From NCBI RefSeq assembly GCF_007679345.1, contig NZ_VEGH01000001.1, positions 186,001 to 250,000 of the forward strand: a DNA stretch of 64,000 nt, in the 5' to 3' direction. Under the pieces are notes generated by a model. That model was not told the DNA's origin. It saw only the letters and a list, made by a program, of their open reading frames with translations, and did not search any database. The DNA comes from Cellulosimicrobium cellulans. GTDB taxonomy: Bacteria > Actinomycetota > Actinomycetes > Actinomycetales > Cellulomonadaceae. This document shows, piece by piece, positions 53,129 through 59,457 of this stretch. Position numbers and translations under genes: made by a program. Position 1 is the first letter of the stretch. Each line of letters opens with the position of its first letter.

Positions 53129-54216
53129 CGGCCGCCGAGGCTCCGGCGCGGGACGCCGCGACCCCTGACGGGCCACGTCCGGGCGGCGGAGGGGCGGACG
53201 GGTCGGCACGGCCCGGCGGTCGGCGCGTGCTCACGCTGGCGCAGTCCCCGTCGCTCGCCGGGCTGTACGCGCGGGCGGGGCTGGCCTCCGGCCGCGCGGC
53301 GGTGGGCGGGCCGGTGCGCCGGGCCGTGGACCGGCGGCGCGCGGGGCCGGCCGGGGAGGCGGGGCCGGACGCGGGGTCGGGGCCGGCCGGGGGGTCCGGG
53401 GCGGCGTCGGACGGGCCCGCGGCCACCACGCTGCCCGCCGTCGAGCACCGCCTCGGCGGGGTGGTCCCCGACCCGGCGCAGCTCACGGCGTACCAGCACC
53501 TGGTGGGCGAGCCCGCGACGGACGTGCTGCCCGCCGGCTACGTGCACGTCCTCGCGTTCCCGGCGGCGATCGCGCTCATCGTGCGACCCGACTTCCCGAT
53601 GCCGCCGCTCGGGATCGTCCACCTGGCGAACCGGGTCGAGCAACGGGCCCCGCTGCGCGTCGGGGACACCCTCGACATCCGCACGTGGGCGCAGGACCTG
53701 CGGCCGCACCGCAAGGGCGCGCAGGTCGAGCTGGTCGCCGAGGTGTGCCGAGCGGGCGCGCCCGCCGACGAGCCGCCGGCCTGGCGCGGGTTGTCGACCT
53801 ACCTGGCACCGGGGGTGCGGGTGCCCGGTCCCGCGCCGGACGAGGCCGAGCGGCCGGAGTTCGTCGCGCCGGTCCCCACCGGCCGGTGGGCGTTCGACGC
53901 CGGGGCGGGGCGTCGGTACGCCGCCGTGTCGGGCGACGCCAACCCGATCCACTTGCACCCCCTGACCGCGCGGGCGCTCGGGTTCCCGCGGGCCATCGCG
54001 CATGGGATGCTCACCGCCGCGCGGGCGCTCGCCGCGGTCGGCGCCCGGCGCGGGGACGCGTACGACTGGGACGTCGAGTTCGCTTCCCCGGTCCTGCTGC
54101 CGTCGACGCCGGTGGTGCGGGTCGCCGCGGCCGGCGACGGGGTGTGGTCGGTGACGGCGTGGGACGCGAAGCGCCGGAAGCCGCACCTGACGGCGGAGGT
54201 GCGGGCGCGGGGGTGA
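53125..54216 (+). CDS. MaoC-like hydratase/dehydratase
   Basis: About 363 residues. After an Ala/Gly-rich N-terminal 90 residues come two hot-dog halves. The second carries the hydratase-2 motif YAAVSGDANPIHLHPLTA with GFPRAIAHGM, holding the catalytic Asp and His. Hydrates trans-2-enoyl-CoA, matching the reductase and thiolase encoded upstream, so the four enzymes with the acyl-CoA dehydrogenase give a full beta-oxidation cycle. GTG 53125 overlaps the fabG stop. Confidence 0.87.
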   Translation: MTAAEAPARDAATPDGPRPGGGGADGSARPGGRRVLTLAQSPSLAGLYARAGLASGRAAVGGPVRRAVDRRRAGPAGEAGPDAGSGPAGGSGAASDGPAATTLPAVEHRLGGVVPDPAQLTAYQHLVGEPATDVLPAGYVHVLAFPAAIALIVRPDFPMPPLGIVHLANRVEQRAPLRVGDTLDIRTWAQDLRPHRKGAQVELVAEVCRAGAPADEPPAWRGLSTYLAPGVRVPGPAPDEAERPEFVAPVPTGRWAFDAGAGRRYAAVSGDANPIHLHPLTARALGFPRAIAHGMLTAARALAAVGARRGDAYDWDVEFASPVLLPSTPVVRVAAAGDGVWSVTAWDAKRRKPHLTAEVRARG

Positions 54217-54246
54217 GGCCGGCGCGGTCCGGCGGACGGGGGCTGC

Positions 54247-54513
54247 CTAGGTGAACAGGGCGCGGAGCATCCGCCGGACCGGGCCGCCGCGGGTCAGGCG
54301 CCGGTGCTCGGCCTCCCAGTACGCGACACCGTCCCGCGCGCGGCGGATGTCCTCCTCGAGCTCCTCGTACCTCGCGCGCTCGCGGTCGCGGGCCCGCTGC
54401 CACAGGTCGCCGCCCTCGGAGAGCCGGGCGATGTACTCGTCGACCTGGGCCTGGACCTCCGGCGGCCACCCGCGGCGCGGCCGAGGCGTCGTCGATTCGG
54501 GGTCAGGCGTCAT
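54247..54513 (-). CDS. hypothetical protein, 88 aa
   Basis: A charged, helical protein: PPEVQAQVDEYIARLSEGGD, then RARDRERARYEELEEDIRRA, which could form a coiled coil, and a basic end (RRMLRALFT). No family recognised, no membrane segment. It converges on the MaoC gene and is in the same direction as the small membrane protein gene upstream. Codon use looks real. Confidence 0.55.
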   Translation of the reverse strand: MTPDPESTTPRPRRGWPPEVQAQVDEYIARLSEGGDLWQRARDRERARYEELEEDIRRARDGVAYWEAEHRRLTRGGPVRRMLRALFT

Positions 54514-54555
54514 CGCAGCGCTCCTCGCTCGTCCGGCCCCGGCTCAACGCTAGCG

Positions 54556-54921
54556 TCACGAGCGCCGACCGGACACCGTCGTCGCGCAGCCACCGAGCGC
54601 CCCCAGCACCCCCGATGCCGGGACGGTCCCGTCCGGGTCGTCCTGCGCCGCCACCCAGCAGAACACCGACCACCACTGCGCGAGGTCCCGGTCCTCCACC
54701 TGCCCACGCCTGGCGACGGCCGACCGGAGCGCCGCGTCCTGACGAGCCTTCTCCGCCGCCGCCCGGTCCGCCCGGATCCGCGCCCGCGTCGCCGCGAACC
54801 CGACCACCGCCGCGAGCACCGCCGCGAGCGCCGCCGGCCCCGGGGACAGCAGGAACTCCGCCAGCCACTCGGCCGTGCCGAGCGCCGGCGCCGCCTGCGT
54901 CACCGCCGCTCCCGCCGCCAT
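54556..54921 (-). CDS. hypothetical membrane protein, 121 aa
   Basis: One strong N-terminal hydrophobic segment (PAALAAVLAAVVGFAATRARI) precedes a charged helix (RADRAAAEKARQDAALRSAVARR) and a Trp-rich stretch (DLAQWWSVFCWVAAQDD). Unknown family; the layout is that of a membrane-anchored helical protein. TACCGT lies seven bases before ATG 54921 on the minus strand, so the start is taken there rather than at the longer frame to 54945. Confidence 0.55.
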   Translation of the reverse strand: MAAGAAVTQAAPALGTAEWLAEFLLSPGPAALAAVLAAVVGFAATRARIRADRAAAEKARQDAALRSAVARRGQVEDRDLAQWWSVFCWVAAQDDPDGTVPASGVLGALGGCATTVSGRRS

Positions 54922-54998
54922 GGCGACCACGGTAGGGGCGCCCAATCCCCCGATCGCCGTCGTCCACAGGCCGGGTTCCGAGGTGCCACCCTGGACCC

Positions 54999-55622
54999 AT
55001 GCCCGCGCCGCGCACCGACCTCCTCGATCCGTACTCCGGCCCCCTCCAGCCCGAGGGCGACTACGACCGCCTCCTGCTCGACGGCCTCGACCTGGTCGGT
55101 GCCGACGCGGAGAGCGCCCGGTTGATCGAGTGCCTGCTGCGGGCGTGCGACCTGGACGGGGCGGAGCTCGACCACGCGCACCTCGTGGACACCACGCTCG
55201 CAGAGTGCCGGGCGGGGATGCTGCGCGCGCGCTCCGGCACGTGGCGGGACGTCACGCTCCAGGGCTGCCGGCTCGGCGCGCTCGAGGCGTTCGGCGGCTC
55301 GTGGGACCGGGTGACGGTCGAGGGCGGCAAGATCGACTACCTCAACCTGCGCGACGCCCGGCTGCACGACGTGCGCCTCGTCGGCTGCACCATCGGCGAC
55401 CTCGACCTCGCGGGCGCCCGCGCGGCGACGGTGCGGCTGGAGGACTGCCGGGTCGGCCGGCTCGACGTCACCCGGGCGCAGCTCAAGGACGTCGACCTGC
55501 GCGGCGCGGACCTCGCGGGCATCGACGGCACCGCCGGGCTGAAGGGTGCGACCATCAGCCCGGCGCAGCTGCTCGACCTGGCGGGCGCGCTGGCGGCGCA
55601 CCTCGGGGTCACCGTGCGGTGA
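54999..55622 (+). CDS. pentapeptide-repeat protein
   Basis: 207 residues of repeats with the A(D/N)LXX rhythm, for example LIECLLRACDLDGAELDHAH and VDLRGADLAGIDG, which fold as a right-handed quadrilateral beta-helix. Such proteins can mimic DNA and bind gyrase (Qnr, MfpA), but many have other roles. Length is close to MfpA; nothing here proves gyrase binding. CACCCT six bases before ATG 54999 fits a leaderless start. Divergent from the membrane protein gene. Confidence 0.8.
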   Translation: MPAPRTDLLDPYSGPLQPEGDYDRLLLDGLDLVGADAESARLIECLLRACDLDGAELDHAHLVDTTLAECRAGMLRARSGTWRDVTLQGCRLGALEAFGGSWDRVTVEGGKIDYLNLRDARLHDVRLVGCTIGDLDLAGARAATVRLEDCRVGRLDVTRAQLKDVDLRGADLAGIDGTAGLKGATISPAQLLDLAGALAAHLGVTVR

Positions 55623-55750
55623 TGCCGCGGGCGCCCGCCGGCACCCCGCGGGCCCGACCGACGCCGCGACCGCGGCCGCGGCTGCGCGGATCCGGGCCGC
55701 GTGCTCGCGGCCAGTGCACCACAGGGTCCCGGCTCGGAGGAACCCCGGAA

Positions 55751-55795
55751 CCGGCGACGGGCGACCCGCCCCCTGCGCGGGCCGTCCGTCGCCGG
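55751..55795. terminator. hairpin between pentapeptide and class V genes
   Basis: CCGGCGACGG at 55751-55760 pairs perfectly with CCGTCGCCGG at 55786-55795, with a CCCGC/GCGGG stem inside. It is in the 176-nt gap between convergent genes, ending four bases before the class V stop. Confidence 0.6.
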
Positions 55796-55798
55796 GGC

Positions 55799-57178
55799 TC
55801 AGTCCTCGACGGCGGGGCCGCAGGCCGCGGCGGCAGTCGCCGCGATCGCGTCGATGCCGGTCACCGCCGGGCGCGGCCGGTTGTCGTCGGCGACCGTCCA
55901 GCAGCCGTCGACGACGTCGTACGCGGCGGCCGGGCCCTCGCCGACGTACGCGCGCAGTCCGGCGAGCAGGCGGTCGACCGTCTCGGTGGTCGTCCCGACG
56001 CCGACCGACGCGCGGATGGCGCCCCCGGTGACGCCGACCCGCGCCAGCAGCGGGTGCGCGCAGAACCGGCCGTCGCGCACGCCGATGCCGTGCTCCGCGG
56101 ACAGGTAGGCCGCCACCAGCCCCGAGTCGTGGTCGCCGAGCGTGAACGCGACGACGCCGACGGGGTCCGCGGAGTCGGACCACAGCTGCAGGACCCGAGC
56201 GCCGGGGATGGTGGCGAGCCCCTCGACCAGCCGCTCCCGCAGCACCCGCTCGTGCTCGACGAGCGCGCCGGCGGGCAGGGCGGACAGCGCGTCGCACGCC
56301 TCGGCCAGCGCGACCGCGCCGAGCACGTTCGGCGACCCGCCCTCGTGCCGCGCGGGCGCCGGCTGCCACAGCGTCCGGTCGGTGCGGACGTCGCGGACCG
56401 CACCGCCCCCGGCCAGGTACGGCGTGCCGGCGTCGAGCCAGTCGCGCCGGCCGACCAGGGCGCCCGCCCCGAACGGCGCATAGGTCTTGTGGCCCGAGAA
56501 CGCCACGTAGTCGACGCCGCTGTCCGCGAGCGAGAACGCCCGGTGCGGGACGAGCTGCGCGCCGTCGACCGCGACCCGCGCGCCCGCCTCTTGCGCGAGC
56601 GCCACGACCGAGGCGATGGGCAGCGCCTCACCCGTGACGTTCGACGCCCCGGTCAGCGTGACCAGCGCGTACGGCTGGCGGGCGAGCTCGTCGCGGAGCG
56701 CGGTCAGCGTCTCGGCGACCGTCGGGGCCGACGGCAGGATCGTCGCCGTGCGGCCCGAGCCGCGCACCGAGCGCACCCACGGCAGCAGGTTGGCGTGGTG
56801 CTCGACGTCCAGCACGAGCACCCGGCCGCCGTCCGGCACGCAGCCGGCCAGCAGATTGAGCGCGTCCGTGGTGTTCCGGGTGATGACCGCGACGTCGTCG
56901 GGGCGGGCGCCCACGAACCGGGCGACCGTGGCGCGGGACGCCTCGTACAGCGCCGTCGACACCTGGGACAGGTACCCCGCCCCGCGGTGCACGGAGGCGT
57001 ACAGCGGTAGCACCTCGACGACCCGCGCGGCGACGGACTCGAGCGCCGGCGCGGACGCGGCGTAGTCGAGGTTGGCGTACGGCACGGACCGGCCGTCGAC
57101 CAGCGGGACGCGCGTGTCCCCGCCGACGACGGGCAGCAGGGCGGTCTCGGCACACGAGGTGGTGACGGTGACGGACAT
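55799..57178 (-). CDS. aminotransferase class V / cysteine desulfurase-like enzyme
   Basis: 459 residues, PLP fold type I. PYANLDYAASAPALESV at the start, HRGAGYLSQVSTALYE, and the PLP Lys in DYVAFSGHKTYAPFGAGAL match the SufS/CsdA-like class V group. The desulfurase active Cys cannot be placed with certainty. ATG 57178 follows GGGGGTAGTCCC. A SAM-IV riboswitch precedes it, so it is repressed when SAM is plentiful and its job is in sulfur amino acid metabolism, not Fe-S assembly. It diverges from the metZ operon. Confidence 0.8.
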   Translation of the reverse strand: MSVTVTTSCAETALLPVVGGDTRVPLVDGRSVPYANLDYAASAPALESVAARVVEVLPLYASVHRGAGYLSQVSTALYEASRATVARFVGARPDDVAVITRNTTDALNLLAGCVPDGGRVLVLDVEHHANLLPWVRSVRGSGRTATILPSAPTVAETLTALRDELARQPYALVTLTGASNVTGEALPIASVVALAQEAGARVAVDGAQLVPHRAFSLADSGVDYVAFSGHKTYAPFGAGALVGRRDWLDAGTPYLAGGGAVRDVRTDRTLWQPAPARHEGGSPNVLGAVALAEACDALSALPAGALVEHERVLRERLVEGLATIPGARVLQLWSDSADPVGVVAFTLGDHDSGLVAAYLSAEHGIGVRDGRFCAHPLLARVGVTGGAIRASVGVGTTTETVDRLLAGLRAYVGEGPAAAYDVVDGCWTVADDNRPRPAVTGIDAIAATAAAACGPAVED

Positions 57179-57224
57179 GGGACTACCCCCGAGCGGATCG
57201 GTGGGGGCCCGGTCGCCGACCGGG

Positions 57225-57342
57225 CGACCCCGCGCTTGCCGGCCACCGGTCGGTGGACGGCCAGGTCGTCACCCGGGGCACCCCGCCGCGGTGGGAGGGT
57301 TGCCGGCCAGCGAGCCGGGGCTTCGCGCTGGCGCTCATGACC
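57225..57342 (-). ncRNA. SAM-IV riboswitch
   Basis: On the minus strand the RNA starts GGTCATGAGCGCCAGCG, continues AAGCCCCGGCTCGCTGG, CCGGCAACCCTCC and GCGGCGGGGTGCCCCGGGTG, closes the first stem with ACGACC, and ends with the pseudoknot segment GGCAAGCGCGGGGTC. This is nearly the published SAM-IV consensus of actinobacteria. TTGACA (57379-57374) and CATCCT (57355-57350), 18 nt apart, form a good promoter. A perfect 7-bp hairpin (57208-57224) follows, and CCCCC at 57203 could pair with the GGGGG ribosome binding site at 57185-57189. Confidence 0.9.
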
Positions 57343-57432
57343 TCGTCCGAGGATGCGGCCCTGTGCGCGGAGGTGTCAATCGTGGTCCACGGTGCGACAC
57401 GGGTTCACCCGGGCGCGGGAGGACGTCCATCC

Positions 57433-57466
57433 TGGTGCCGGCGATGGCGTAGCATCGCCGGCACCA
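57433..57466. promoter_or_regulatory. 14-bp dyad around -10 box of metZ operon
   Basis: TGGTGCCGGCGATG-GCGTAG-CATCGCCGGCACCA is a perfect inverted repeat with 14-bp arms. The centre reads TAGCAT on the plus strand, a good -10 hexamer for the SAM-I riboswitch transcript. A repressor bound here would block the promoter; the right arm also forms the first bases of the RNA. Confidence 0.65.
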
Positions 57467-57560
57467 TCCAGAGCGGCCGAGAGATCTGGCTCGTCGACGC
57501 CGCAGCAACCCGCGGACCCCCACCGGGGCCGGCCGAGGGTGCTTCCGCCAGATCCGATGG
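57464..57560 (+). ncRNA. SAM-I (S-box type) riboswitch
   Basis: The stem CCATC at 57464-57468 closes with GATGG at 57556-57560. Between are AGAGCGGCCGAGAGATCTGG, GACGCCGCAGCAACC and GGTGCTTCCGCC, the S-box core. The ribosome binding site GGAGGAGAGG starts inside the closing stem, so SAM binding probably blocks translation of the downstream DUF1737-rhodanese-metZ operon. Confidence 0.88.
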
Positions 57561-57569
57561 AGGAGAGGC

Positions 57570-57779
57570 ATGACCGACACCGACGACCGCCTGCGCTACC
57601 GCCTGCTGACCGGACCGGACGACCGCTCGTTCTGCGAGCGGGTCAGCGCCGCCCTGGCCGAGGGCTACGAGCTGCACGGCGGGCCCGCCGCCACCTTCGA
57701 CGGGGAGCGCGTGATCGTCGCGCAGGCCGTCGTCCTGCCGGCCGCGACGGCCCCGGGCACCCCGGTGCGGCCGCTGTGA
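57570..57779 (+). CDS. DUF1737 domain protein
   Basis: 69 residues. RYRLLTGPDDRSFCERVSAAL, then EGYELHGGPAATFDGERVIVAQAVV, fits DUF1737, a tiny alpha-beta fold of unknown function. First gene after the SAM-I riboswitch; it overlaps the rhodanese gene (GTGA). The location argues for a part in methionine or sulfur transfer, but no catalytic residue is seen. ATG 57570 follows GGAGGAGAGG. Confidence 0.78.
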   Translation: MTDTDDRLRYRLLTGPDDRSFCERVSAALAEGYELHGGPAATFDGERVIVAQAVVLPAATAPGTPVRPL

Positions 57780-58201
57780 CCGCGCCCTACGCGGGTGACC
57801 TGACCCCGCAGGAGGCCTGGGACCTGCTGCTGTCCGACGAGCGCGCCGTCCTCGTGGACGTCCGCACCGAGGGCGAGTGGCAGACGATCGGCGTGCCGGA
57901 CACCGCCGACGCCGGGGAGGGCCGCACCGCCTTCGTCGAGTGGGTCGACGCGTTCGGCCGCCCGAACCCCGCGTTCCTCGACGGCCTCGCCGCGGCCGGC
58001 GTCACGGCGGACGACCCGCGGCCCGTGGTGTTCCTCTGCCGGTCCGGCGTGCGCTCGGTGGCGGCCGCCGTGACCGCGACCGCCGCGGGCCTCGGCCCGG
58101 CGTACAACATCCTGACCGGGTTCGAGGGCGACGTGGGCCCGGACGGCCGCCGCGGGCACCAGGGCTGGCGCGCCGCCGGCCTGCCGTGGCGGGAGGCGTG
58201 A
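57776..58201 (+). CDS. rhodanese-like sulfurtransferase
   Basis: 141 residues, single rhodanese domain. The active loop is LCRSGVRS with catalytic Cys; VLVDVRTEGEWQTIGVPD is the entry motif and NILTGFEGDVGPDGRRGHQGW the end. It can carry persulfide sulfur. Rhodanese genes of this type often precede metZ, which uses sulfide, so delivery of sulfide-level sulfur to MetZ is a fair inference. Overlaps both neighbours (GTGA each). Confidence 0.87.
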   Translation: MTAPYAGDLTPQEAWDLLLSDERAVLVDVRTEGEWQTIGVPDTADAGEGRTAFVEWVDAFGRPNPAFLDGLAAAGVTADDPRPVVFLCRSGVRSVAAAVTATAAGLGPAYNILTGFEGDVGPDGRRGHQGWRAAGLPWREA

Positions 58202-59457
58202 CCGGCCCGGCCGCGCCCGGACCGGCCGCGTGGCGGGACGACCGCCTCCCGCTGGAGCAGCTGCGCCCCGACACGCTCGCCGTGCGCGGCGGCTCGGTGC
58301 GCACCCCGTTCCAGGAGACGTCCGAGGCGCTGTTCCTCACCCAGGGCTACGTCTACTCCCGCGCGGCCGACGCCGAGGCGGCGTTCGCCGGAGAGGCCGA
58401 CCGGTTCCTGTACTCGCGGTACGGCAACCCGACGGTGTCGACGTTCGAGGAGCGGCTCCGGCTGCTCGAGGGCGCCGAGGCCTGCTACGCCACGGCGTCC
58501 GGCATGTCGGCGGTGTTCACCGCGCTCGCCGCGCTCGTCCGGTCGGGCTCGCGGGTCGTCGCGGCGCGCGCGCTGTTCGGGTCGTCGGTGGTGATCTTCG
58601 ACGAGATCCTCGCGAAGTGGGGCGTGCGCACCGACTACGTCGACGGCCACGTGCCCGCGCAGTGGGAGGAGGCCCTGTCGACCCCCGCGGACGTGGTGTT
58701 CTTCGAGACGCCGTCCAACCCGATGCAGGACCTGGTCGACATCGCCACGGTCAGCAGGCTCGCCCACGCCGCGGGCGCGGTCGTCGTCGTGGACAACGTG
58801 TTCGCGACGCCCGTGCTGTCCCGGCCGCTCGACTTCGGCGCCGACGTGGTCGTGTACTCGGCGACCAAGCACATCGACGGCCAGGGGCGGGTGCTCGGCG
58901 GGGCGATCCTCGGCACCGACGCGTTCGTGCACGGGCCGGTGCAGACGCTGATCAGGAACACGGGGCCCTCGCTGTCGGCGTTCAACGCGTGGGTGCTGCT
59001 CAAGGGGCTGGAGACGCTGTCGCTGCGGGTGCGGCACCAGACCGCGTCCGCGCTGGTGGTGGCCACCCGGCTCGAGGAGCACCCCGCGATCGCGCAGGTC
59101 CGGTACCCGTACCTGCCGTCACACCCGCAGCACGCGCTCGCGCTCGCGCAGCAGTCCGGCGGCGGGACGGTGGTGACGTTCGATCTGCGGGTGCCGGAGG
59201 GCTCGACGCCCGCCGAGGCCAAGGCGCTGACGTTCGGGGTCCTGGACGCGCTGCGGGTGGTCGACATCTCGAACAACCTCGGCGACGCGAAGTCGCTGGT
59301 CACCCACCCGGCGACGACGACGCACCGCAAGCTCGGCCCCGCCGGGCGGGCAGCGGTCGGCATCGCGGAGTCGACGGTGCGGCTGTCCGTCGGGCTGGAG
59401 GACGTCGACGACCTGGCCGACGACCTGGAGCAGGCCCTGGGGACGCTGGGCGGCTGA
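58198..59457 (+). CDS. metZ: O-succinylhomoserine sulfhydrylase
   Basis: Makes homocysteine from O-succinylhomoserine and sulfide in methionine synthesis. 419 residues. RYGNPTVSTFEERL, ASGMSAVFTALAAL, and the PLP Lys in YSATKHIDGQGRVLGG are Cys/Met-metabolism PLP enzyme motifs, and ISNNLGDAKSLVTHPATTTH is typical of MetZ. O-acetylhomoserine use is possible. Third gene of the SAM-I controlled operon. Confidence 0.9.
   Translation: MTGPAAPGPAAWRDDRLPLEQLRPDTLAVRGGSVRTPFQETSEALFLTQGYVYSRAADAEAAFAGEADRFLYSRYGNPTVSTFEERLRLLEGAEACYATASGMSAVFTALAALVRSGSRVVAARALFGSSVVIFDEILAKWGVRTDYVDGHVPAQWEEALSTPADVVFFETPSNPMQDLVDIATVSRLAHAAGAVVVVDNVFATPVLSRPLDFGADVVVYSATKHIDGQGRVLGGAILGTDAFVHGPVQTLIRNTGPSLSAFNAWVLLKGLETLSLRVRHQTASALVVATRLEEHPAIAQVRYPYLPSHPQHALALAQQSGGGTVVTFDLRVPEGSTPAEAKALTFGVLDALRVVDISNNLGDAKSLVTHPATTTHRKLGPAGRAAVGIAESTVRLSVGLEDVDDLADDLEQALGTLGG

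Follow-up and report, generated by a model that had tools for sequence, protein, structure and literature searches.

SAM-I riboswitches are characterised, in PMC7270179, by a P4 helix in the core, the lack of an additional pseudoknot, a kink-turn in P2 and a diagnostic uridine (position 121 of the RNA described there), and SAM-IV riboswitches, in PMC6890682, by a core without P4, a P5 hairpin outside P1 and a pseudoknot (PK-2) between the P3 loop and the 3' tail. Members of the SAM-I/IV class are described in excerpts of PMC6890682 and PMC2864571 as having P4 and lacking both the P2 internal loop and the pseudoknot PK-1. Two riboswitches can also share one regulatory region, as in the tandem of a SAM-I and an AdoCbl riboswitch before metE in B. 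clausii (excerpt of PMC2258182). The locus described here resembles such tandems in having two riboswitches in one regulatory region, but the tandem elements are both on one transcript, whereas here each of two divergent transcripts carries one and the same ligand is expected for both. In the literature that we searched, neither a divergent SAM-I/SAM-IV pair nor a P4-less SAM-I was described, although the original SAM-IV and SAM-I/IV structure reports could mention such cases. The word "divergent" is absent from the main text of two articles on contiguous or tandem riboswitches (PMC12452182 and PMC9481103) and of PMC3766115.

Two riboswitch architectures at one sulfur locus

The window, meaning the whole stretch of 64,000 nt that was analysed (Cellulosimicrobium cellulans GCF_007679345.1, NZ_VEGH01000001.1, 186,001-250,000 of the forward strand), was searched in full with Rfam 15 at gathering thresholds. 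Five matches were returned, namely three tRNAs, one SAM-IV element (RF00634) and one SAM element (RF00162), the last two lying back to back between divergent genes. The main features, in window positions, are:

55799-57178, minus strand: class V PLP enzyme of the SufS-like cysteine-desulfurase family, 459 aa (PF00266, 268 bits)
57227-57342, minus strand: SAM-IV aptamer with P1-P2-P3, P5 and PK-2 tail (RF00634, 108 bits against a cut-off of 38, model positions 1-116 of 116)
57343-57460, no strand: divergent promoter region between the aptamers, 118 nt (Rfam boundaries)
57461-57563, plus strand: P4-less aptamer of SAM-I type (RF00162, 46.7 bits against a cut-off of 44.4, model positions 1-108 of 108)
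57570-57779, plus strand: DUF1737 protein, 69 aa (PF08410, E 6.5e-22)
57776-58201, plus strand: rhodanese (PF00581; closest solved relative 2fsx, E 5.8e-42)
58198-59457, plus strand: MetZ, O-succinylhomoserine sulfhydrylase (PRK07810, 717 bits against a cut-off of 618; 3ndn, E 9e-166)

These matches confirm that two SAM-clan architectures stand divergently in a single sulfur locus, one per operon, and the models for SAM-I, SAM-IV and SAM-I/IV that a preliminary description of this DNA had named as its check assign the two RNAs to two classes, neither below its threshold. That description had placed a SAM-IV element leftward before the class V PLP gene, which is what we find, and an element of SAM-I type rightward before DUF1737, rhodanese and metZ, where strand, order, genes and the RF00162 call all agree, but full membership of SAM-I fails for lack of P4. 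The separation of 121 nt that it gave is in fact 118 nt.

The minus-strand RNA fits the whole SAM-IV model, including P5, the tail and the PK-2 complementarity, and in the Rfam alignment it has a core without P4, a P5 hairpin outside P1 and a PK-2 between P3 loop and 3' tail; no difference of the aptamer from the family was noted. The plus-strand element passes the RF00162 cut-off by a narrow 2.3 bits. A permissive Rfam scan of positions 57200-57640 returned the same two elements and one match far under its cut-off. Across the genome (4.58 Mb in 51 contigs) there are two SAM-I and three SAM-IV matches; at E<=0.001 the SAM-I/IV model RF01725 has none, and the plus-strand element is not among the matches of the SAM-IV model. 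Both RNAs are predicted to bind SAM.

The label "class V PLP enzyme" is borne out by PF00266 but is too broad, as the best solved relatives are SufS/CsdB-type cysteine desulfurases (E about 1e-56). Where the window enzyme has FSGHK and VRDGRFCA, the top solved relative has FSGHK and VRTGHHCA in the alignment, and we take the lysine of the first motif and the cysteine of the second to be the PLP lysine and the catalytic cysteine. Since the score against the SufS family TIGR01979 (272.6 bits) lies under its cut-off of 475.1, the enzyme is best called SufS-like only. On the other side, MetZ also exceeds the TIGR01325 cut-off, and 2fsx and 3ndn are presumably the M. tuberculosis proteins Rv0390 and Rv0391.

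Conservation of the divergent pair

To follow the pair beyond this genome, SAM-IV and SAM-I model matches were collected from 98 genomes including our own, 60 of them from its genus, and a pair was defined as divergent matches within 3 kb. Among the matches listed, at least 49 of the 60 genus genomes have a divergent SAM-IV/SAM-I pair, so the arrangement, thought unusual in the preliminary description, is common in this genus. RF00162 undercalls the plus-strand partner, whose SAM-I listing is below the cut-off in 5 of the 49 loci. A tailored covariance model of the P4-less element (R1, with which the window element, itself part of the training set, scores 104.4 bits) adds pairs in G010 and G034 that were detected only in this way, bringing the count to at least 51 of 60. 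Among the matches listed, no pair was found in G004, G011, G026, G031, G033, G035, G045, G047 and G053. Chance is a poor explanation, because this genome has few SAM-I and SAM-IV matches and the pair recurs across the genus.

The pair also occurs outside the genus. A genome of another family in the same order (G089) has two divergent SAM-IV/SAM-I pairs among the matches listed, and in a phylum sample of 296 genomes, where pairs were sought by eye, one more was seen with its elements about 165 nt apart (G146, same class, another family), its SAM-IV preceding a PLP-enzyme relative of 60% identity. In addition, scanning named genomes with a DNA pattern yielded 47 stretches, most of them from Cellulomonas and others from Sanguibacter, Paraoerskovia and Sediminihabitans. 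Three of these (L205, L230 and L236) were rejected as pairs, having no SAM-IV match and, for L205 and L230, no SAM-I match either; in each of the other 44, tblastn detected one or more of the four window proteins, and the Rfam check among them covered five (L199, L208, L213, L215 and L232).

Which class precedes which gene is constant: at all 49 genus pair loci SAM-IV is followed by the PLP gene and SAM-I by rhodanese and metZ, DUF1737 being present at 15 of 51 pair loci. SAM-IV elements away from the pair show a similar preference. Nineteen such loci were tested, of which 11 precede a relative of the PLP gene (5 of the 11 lying outside the order), as in the window, against 6 that precede a distant MetZ relative (34-36% identity) and 2 that precede neither. 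With SAM-IV found before the PLP gene well beyond the pair, also outside the order, our preferred reading of the pair is two operons back to back, and the two classes would stand side by side because either operon came with its own sensor.

Other groupings of SAM riboswitches were seen as well. On contig C15 of the same genome, a second divergent pair (L117) consists of two SAM-IV elements 225 nt apart (2501-2614, minus, and 2840-2943, plus, counted within the locus), the right gene of which resembles an SsuE/MsuE FMN reductase below the cut-off; on the minus strand, 35 nt past the left SAM-IV and before the next gene, lies a 31-codon open reading frame ending in GRCRCRR, which we presume could encode a cysteine-responsive leader peptide. 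Similar SAM-IV/SAM-IV pairs occur in G016, G027 and G040 among the matches listed. In G375, one strand of contig C4 carries three weak SAM-IV matches and a match of the P4-less model within about 4.3 kb (54011-58314).

The distance between the paired elements varies more than the assignment of classes to genes. Among the 49 genus pairs, 31 spacers measure 116-120 nt, 8 more fall within 97-165 nt, one is 245 nt and nine are 725-1452 nt. All nine long-spacer loci keep both elements, and the five inspected have open reading frames in between, by eye four acetyltransferase-like and one luciferase-type enzyme-like. With both elements kept at such distances in 9 of 49 loci, close adjacency is probably not needed for function. 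This persistence fits the view that the pairing is a by-product of local gene order and has no joint regulatory meaning, as does G011, a genome in about 300 contigs, where the elements are on different contigs; the 116-120 nt spacer of 31 of 49 loci speaks against that view, suggesting constraint on a shared promoter region. We regard a by-product as a serious candidate, with a chance of being right that falls just short of even.

Proposed switching and the shared promoter region

The explanation that we favour and consider likely is that two independent SAM-sensing OFF switches, mainly translational, flank a compact divergent promoter. Its parts in the two leaders and in the spacer are:

57186-57190, minus strand: SD-like GGGGG, 7 nt before the PLP-gene start codon
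57203-57207, minus strand: CCCCC, putatively able to pair with tail GGGG or SD GGGGG (from the sequence)
57228-57231, minus strand: tail GGGG, able to pair with CCCC at 57207-57204, two G in common with the PK-2 strand (complement counts)
57230-57234, minus strand: PK-2 3' strand CGCGG, complement of CCGCG in the P3 loop (Rfam alignment)
57379-57374 and 57355-57350, minus strand: putative leftward promoter, TTGACA and CATCCT (by eye)
57433-57466, no strand: inverted repeat with perfect 14-bp arms 6 nt apart, enclosing the presumed rightward -10 (from the sequence)
57450-57455, plus strand: putative rightward -10, TAGCAT (by eye)
57556-57563, plus strand: P1 3' strand GATGG (57556-57560) overlapping SD GGAGG (57559-57563), 6 nt before ATG 57570

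On the right, the P1 3' strand runs into the Shine-Dalgarno sequence, an overlap present in 46 of 51 pair loci, where the first ATG or GTG comes 2-11 nt later; the strand has the form GATGGAGG in 35 of 51 loci and GATGGGAGG in 11 of 51, and the remaining 5 of 51 have an SD without the usual P1 overlap. A start codon this close to P1/SD leaves no room for a terminator. At high SAM, the P4-less aptamer would bind SAM and P1 would close, hiding the first bases of GGAGG, so that DUF1737, rhodanese and metZ would not be translated; no separate expression platform would be needed. This mechanism draws support from the anatomy and from precedent, a ribosome-binding site within P1 having been reported for SAM-I.

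On the left, the CCCC strand could pair with either the tail or the SD, which suggests PK-2 versus a tail hairpin as the switch. At high SAM, the SAM-IV RNA would bind SAM, form PK-2 and thereby block the alternative tail hairpin, and the released CCCC strand would pair with the SD of the SufS-like gene and turn it OFF. In 44 of 51 pair loci, an exact complement of the four tail bases follows at a distance of 18-46 nt, against a mean of 16 and a maximum of 27 of 51 loci in 1000 shuffles. This signal is only partly specific, since complements of one tail type also occur near the other: GGGA tails have UCCC in 14 of 14 loci and also CCCC in 9 of 14, and UCCC lies near GGGG tails in 21 of 34. Computed SD accessibility was obtained for 37 of the 51 loci, the other 14 being dropped because the start-codon rule found none. 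With the PK-2 strand blocked it was lower by more than 0.1 in 11 and higher in 5 of these 37 loci, several of whose starts are wrong; in the same set, with the same wrong starts, the mean was 0.30 when free, 0.27 under the PK-2 block and 0.21 under a control block elsewhere. The leftward platform of the window folds no better than shuffles (z -0.82). The alternation of PK-2 and tail hairpin stands as a candidate switch read from complementarity.

Low SAM would open both switches. The result would be joint repression of the homocysteine-forming step of MetZ and of a presumed sulfur supply through the cysteine desulfurase-like enzyme and the rhodanese.

The two riboswitches might instead be tuned to different SAM levels, giving an ordered shut-off of the sulfur-supply and homocysteine genes for which two classes are kept. 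The assignment of class to gene, which swaps at none of the 49 genus loci, and the differing expression platforms of the two sides are consistent with such tuning. Against it, SAM-IV precedes PLP-gene relatives at the 11 of 19 other loci with no SAM-I within 3 kb (among the matches listed, partly by eye), which inheritance would explain equally well. We hold separate tuning to be possible rather than probable.

The two independent OFF switches that we favour would be served by promoters packed into the spacer. In all 31 spacers of 116-120 nt, GTCAA on the leftward -35 side and TAnnnT at the rightward -10 are at the expected ends, and from the promoters picked by eye both transcripts would start within a few nucleotides of their own aptamers. 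The 14-bp inverted repeat of the window was considered as a riboswitch hairpin and rejected: it spans the presumed -10, and when the 31 aligned relatives are compared by eye, most of them have not retained it in this form.

A different inverted repeat of operator-like appearance, TCTCG-N-CGGGAC and its variants, is located in the inter-promoter spacer of 27 of the 51 pair loci (e.g., L109) and, apart from these, just twice in the pair DNA that was retrieved. This distribution could point to a shared DNA operator whose transcription factor does most of the regulation, the riboswitches only trimming it. The repeat was not found in the other 24 of 51 loci, which include the window and its nearest relatives. 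Of the 60 genus genomes, 59 carry several copies each of its strict form, in most of them more than of the reversed control, so that it is not special to the pair locus. We therefore think it improbable that such an operator is the main regulator here. The repeat is in its own right a candidate site of a sulfur regulator, and one of its matches in G019 is placed some 50 nt ahead of a third SAM-I match that scores below the cut-off.

A SAM-I-type aptamer without P4

The plus-strand element has the following internal features:

57478-57498, plus strand: kink-turn, CGA (57478-57480) and GTCGAC (57493-57498) flanking P2b (sequence and alignment A1)
57485-57489, plus strand: P2b loop strand UCUGG, in a pseudoknot with CCAGA 57548-57552 (two-sided changes at 3 of 5 pairs, 29 sequences)
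57543-57555, plus strand: J3/1, 13 nt, with no room for a P4 hairpin (from the sequence)

With SAM-I (RF00162) the element has in common P1, P2 with its kink-turn, the pseudoknot between P2b and J3/4, P3 and the GCAAC and GGUGC core, but it lacks P4, its J3/1 (measured from GGUGC to the P1 3' strand) being 13 nt as against 24-45 nt. It shares the SAM-binding core of the clan with SAM-I/IV (RF01725) and is otherwise the reverse of that class, having the P2 internal loop and PK-1 and no P4. An additional PK-2 or P5 is likewise lacking in the plus-strand element, where only 6 nt separate the P1/SD strand from the start codon. In a tentative mapping by hand on the T. tengcongensis sequence, 21 of the 23 conserved SAM-I nucleotides of PMC3764141 agree, U4 being a C in a C-G pair and A61 a U. 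A displacement of the J3/4 pseudoknot partner in the 3' direction was considered and rejected: by the T. tengcongensis numbering it is in its usual place and only P4 is missing. With kink-turn and PK-1, and with neither PK-2 nor P4, the element is, as far as its sequence allows it to be classed, a P4-less aptamer of SAM-I type rather than a full member of SAM-I.

The same form is found throughout the pairs. J3/1 is 13 nt in 48, 12 nt in 2 and 11 nt in 1 of 51 pair elements, too short for P4 in any of them, and 8 readable elements from other families of the order are likewise without it. Alignment A1 contains 29 non-redundant elements (one of 30 was omitted) from 64 distinct ones, gathered with a pattern that fixed part of P1 and demanded a short J3/1. 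Within it, the 24 tested pairs are formed in 696 of 696 cells and 7 pairs have two-sided changes, against 1.5 in shuffles. The kink-turn keeps its tandem G.A pairs in the form CGA/NNNGAC, with G18, A19, G35 and A36 invariant, and the five pseudoknot pairs are 100% paired, occurring in C-G, U-A and U-G forms. The compensatory changes fall within P2 and the pseudoknot. As P1 does not vary in A1, covariation speaks neither for nor against it.

In the phylum sample, P4 was surveyed at 60 loci (30 ranked by R1 and 30 by RF00162), J3/1 being readable in 42 and unread in 18. Of the readable loci, 11 have a J3/1 of 12-13 nt and are P4-less by length, 28 have 24-45 nt and form a stem of four or more pairs (counting G-U), and two have 24 and 26 nt without one. 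Our own metF element was read automatically as 19 nt because GGTGC occurs twice, its true J3/1 being 13 nt. P4-less and P4-bearing SAM-I elements therefore coexist in the phylum. RF00162 scores in the genus are 41-59 bits (among the matches listed), and the best 30 RF00162 loci of the phylum sample score 83-94 bits, 23 of them read as P4-bearing; the marginal score of the window element is probably explained by its missing P4. The metF element is the other SAM-I of the same genome (L001, contig C22; 1501-1597, plus, counted within the locus), also P4-less, with a P1 strand, GATGGAG, that runs into the SD region; it precedes a metF-like gene, and the part of the protein that was scored reaches 217.7 bits against TIGR00676 (cut-off 293.7).

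That the element is instead a degenerate SAM-I which has lost P4 and function, as its marginal Rfam score and missing helix might suggest, is very improbable given that none of the counted pairs is broken across 29 diverse sequences, that P2 and the pseudoknot show compensatory changes, and that the element is kept before rhodanese-metZ and, in the same form, before a metF-like gene.

Hence the arrangement is real and conserved, and is built from parts of known kinds, one of them a structural variant. What is new here is that P4 is missing in the plus-strand element and in all 51 pair elements, with the kink-turn and a covarying pseudoknot retained. A bolder and rather doubtful reading is that the P4-less element is a distinct SAM-clan architecture in which a P2 with kink-turn, as in SAM-I, is joined to a core without P4, as in SAM-IV, and that it is present in several Actinomycetota lineages, under-annotated because Rfam places it in SAM-I at or below threshold, and permanently paired here with SAM-IV to give two set points for one sulfur pathway. 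If this were true, two cores that differ in their peripheries and in how they hide the SD would sense one SAM pool. Combining the kink-turn of SAM-I with the P4-free core of SAM-IV, the P4-less form bears on the relation between those two classes, and it poses the question of whether SAM recognition by SAM-I requires P4. The locus itself offers a natural experiment, in which the same ligand, cell and promoter region are combined with two RNA architectures of different switching geometry, kept across most of the genus.
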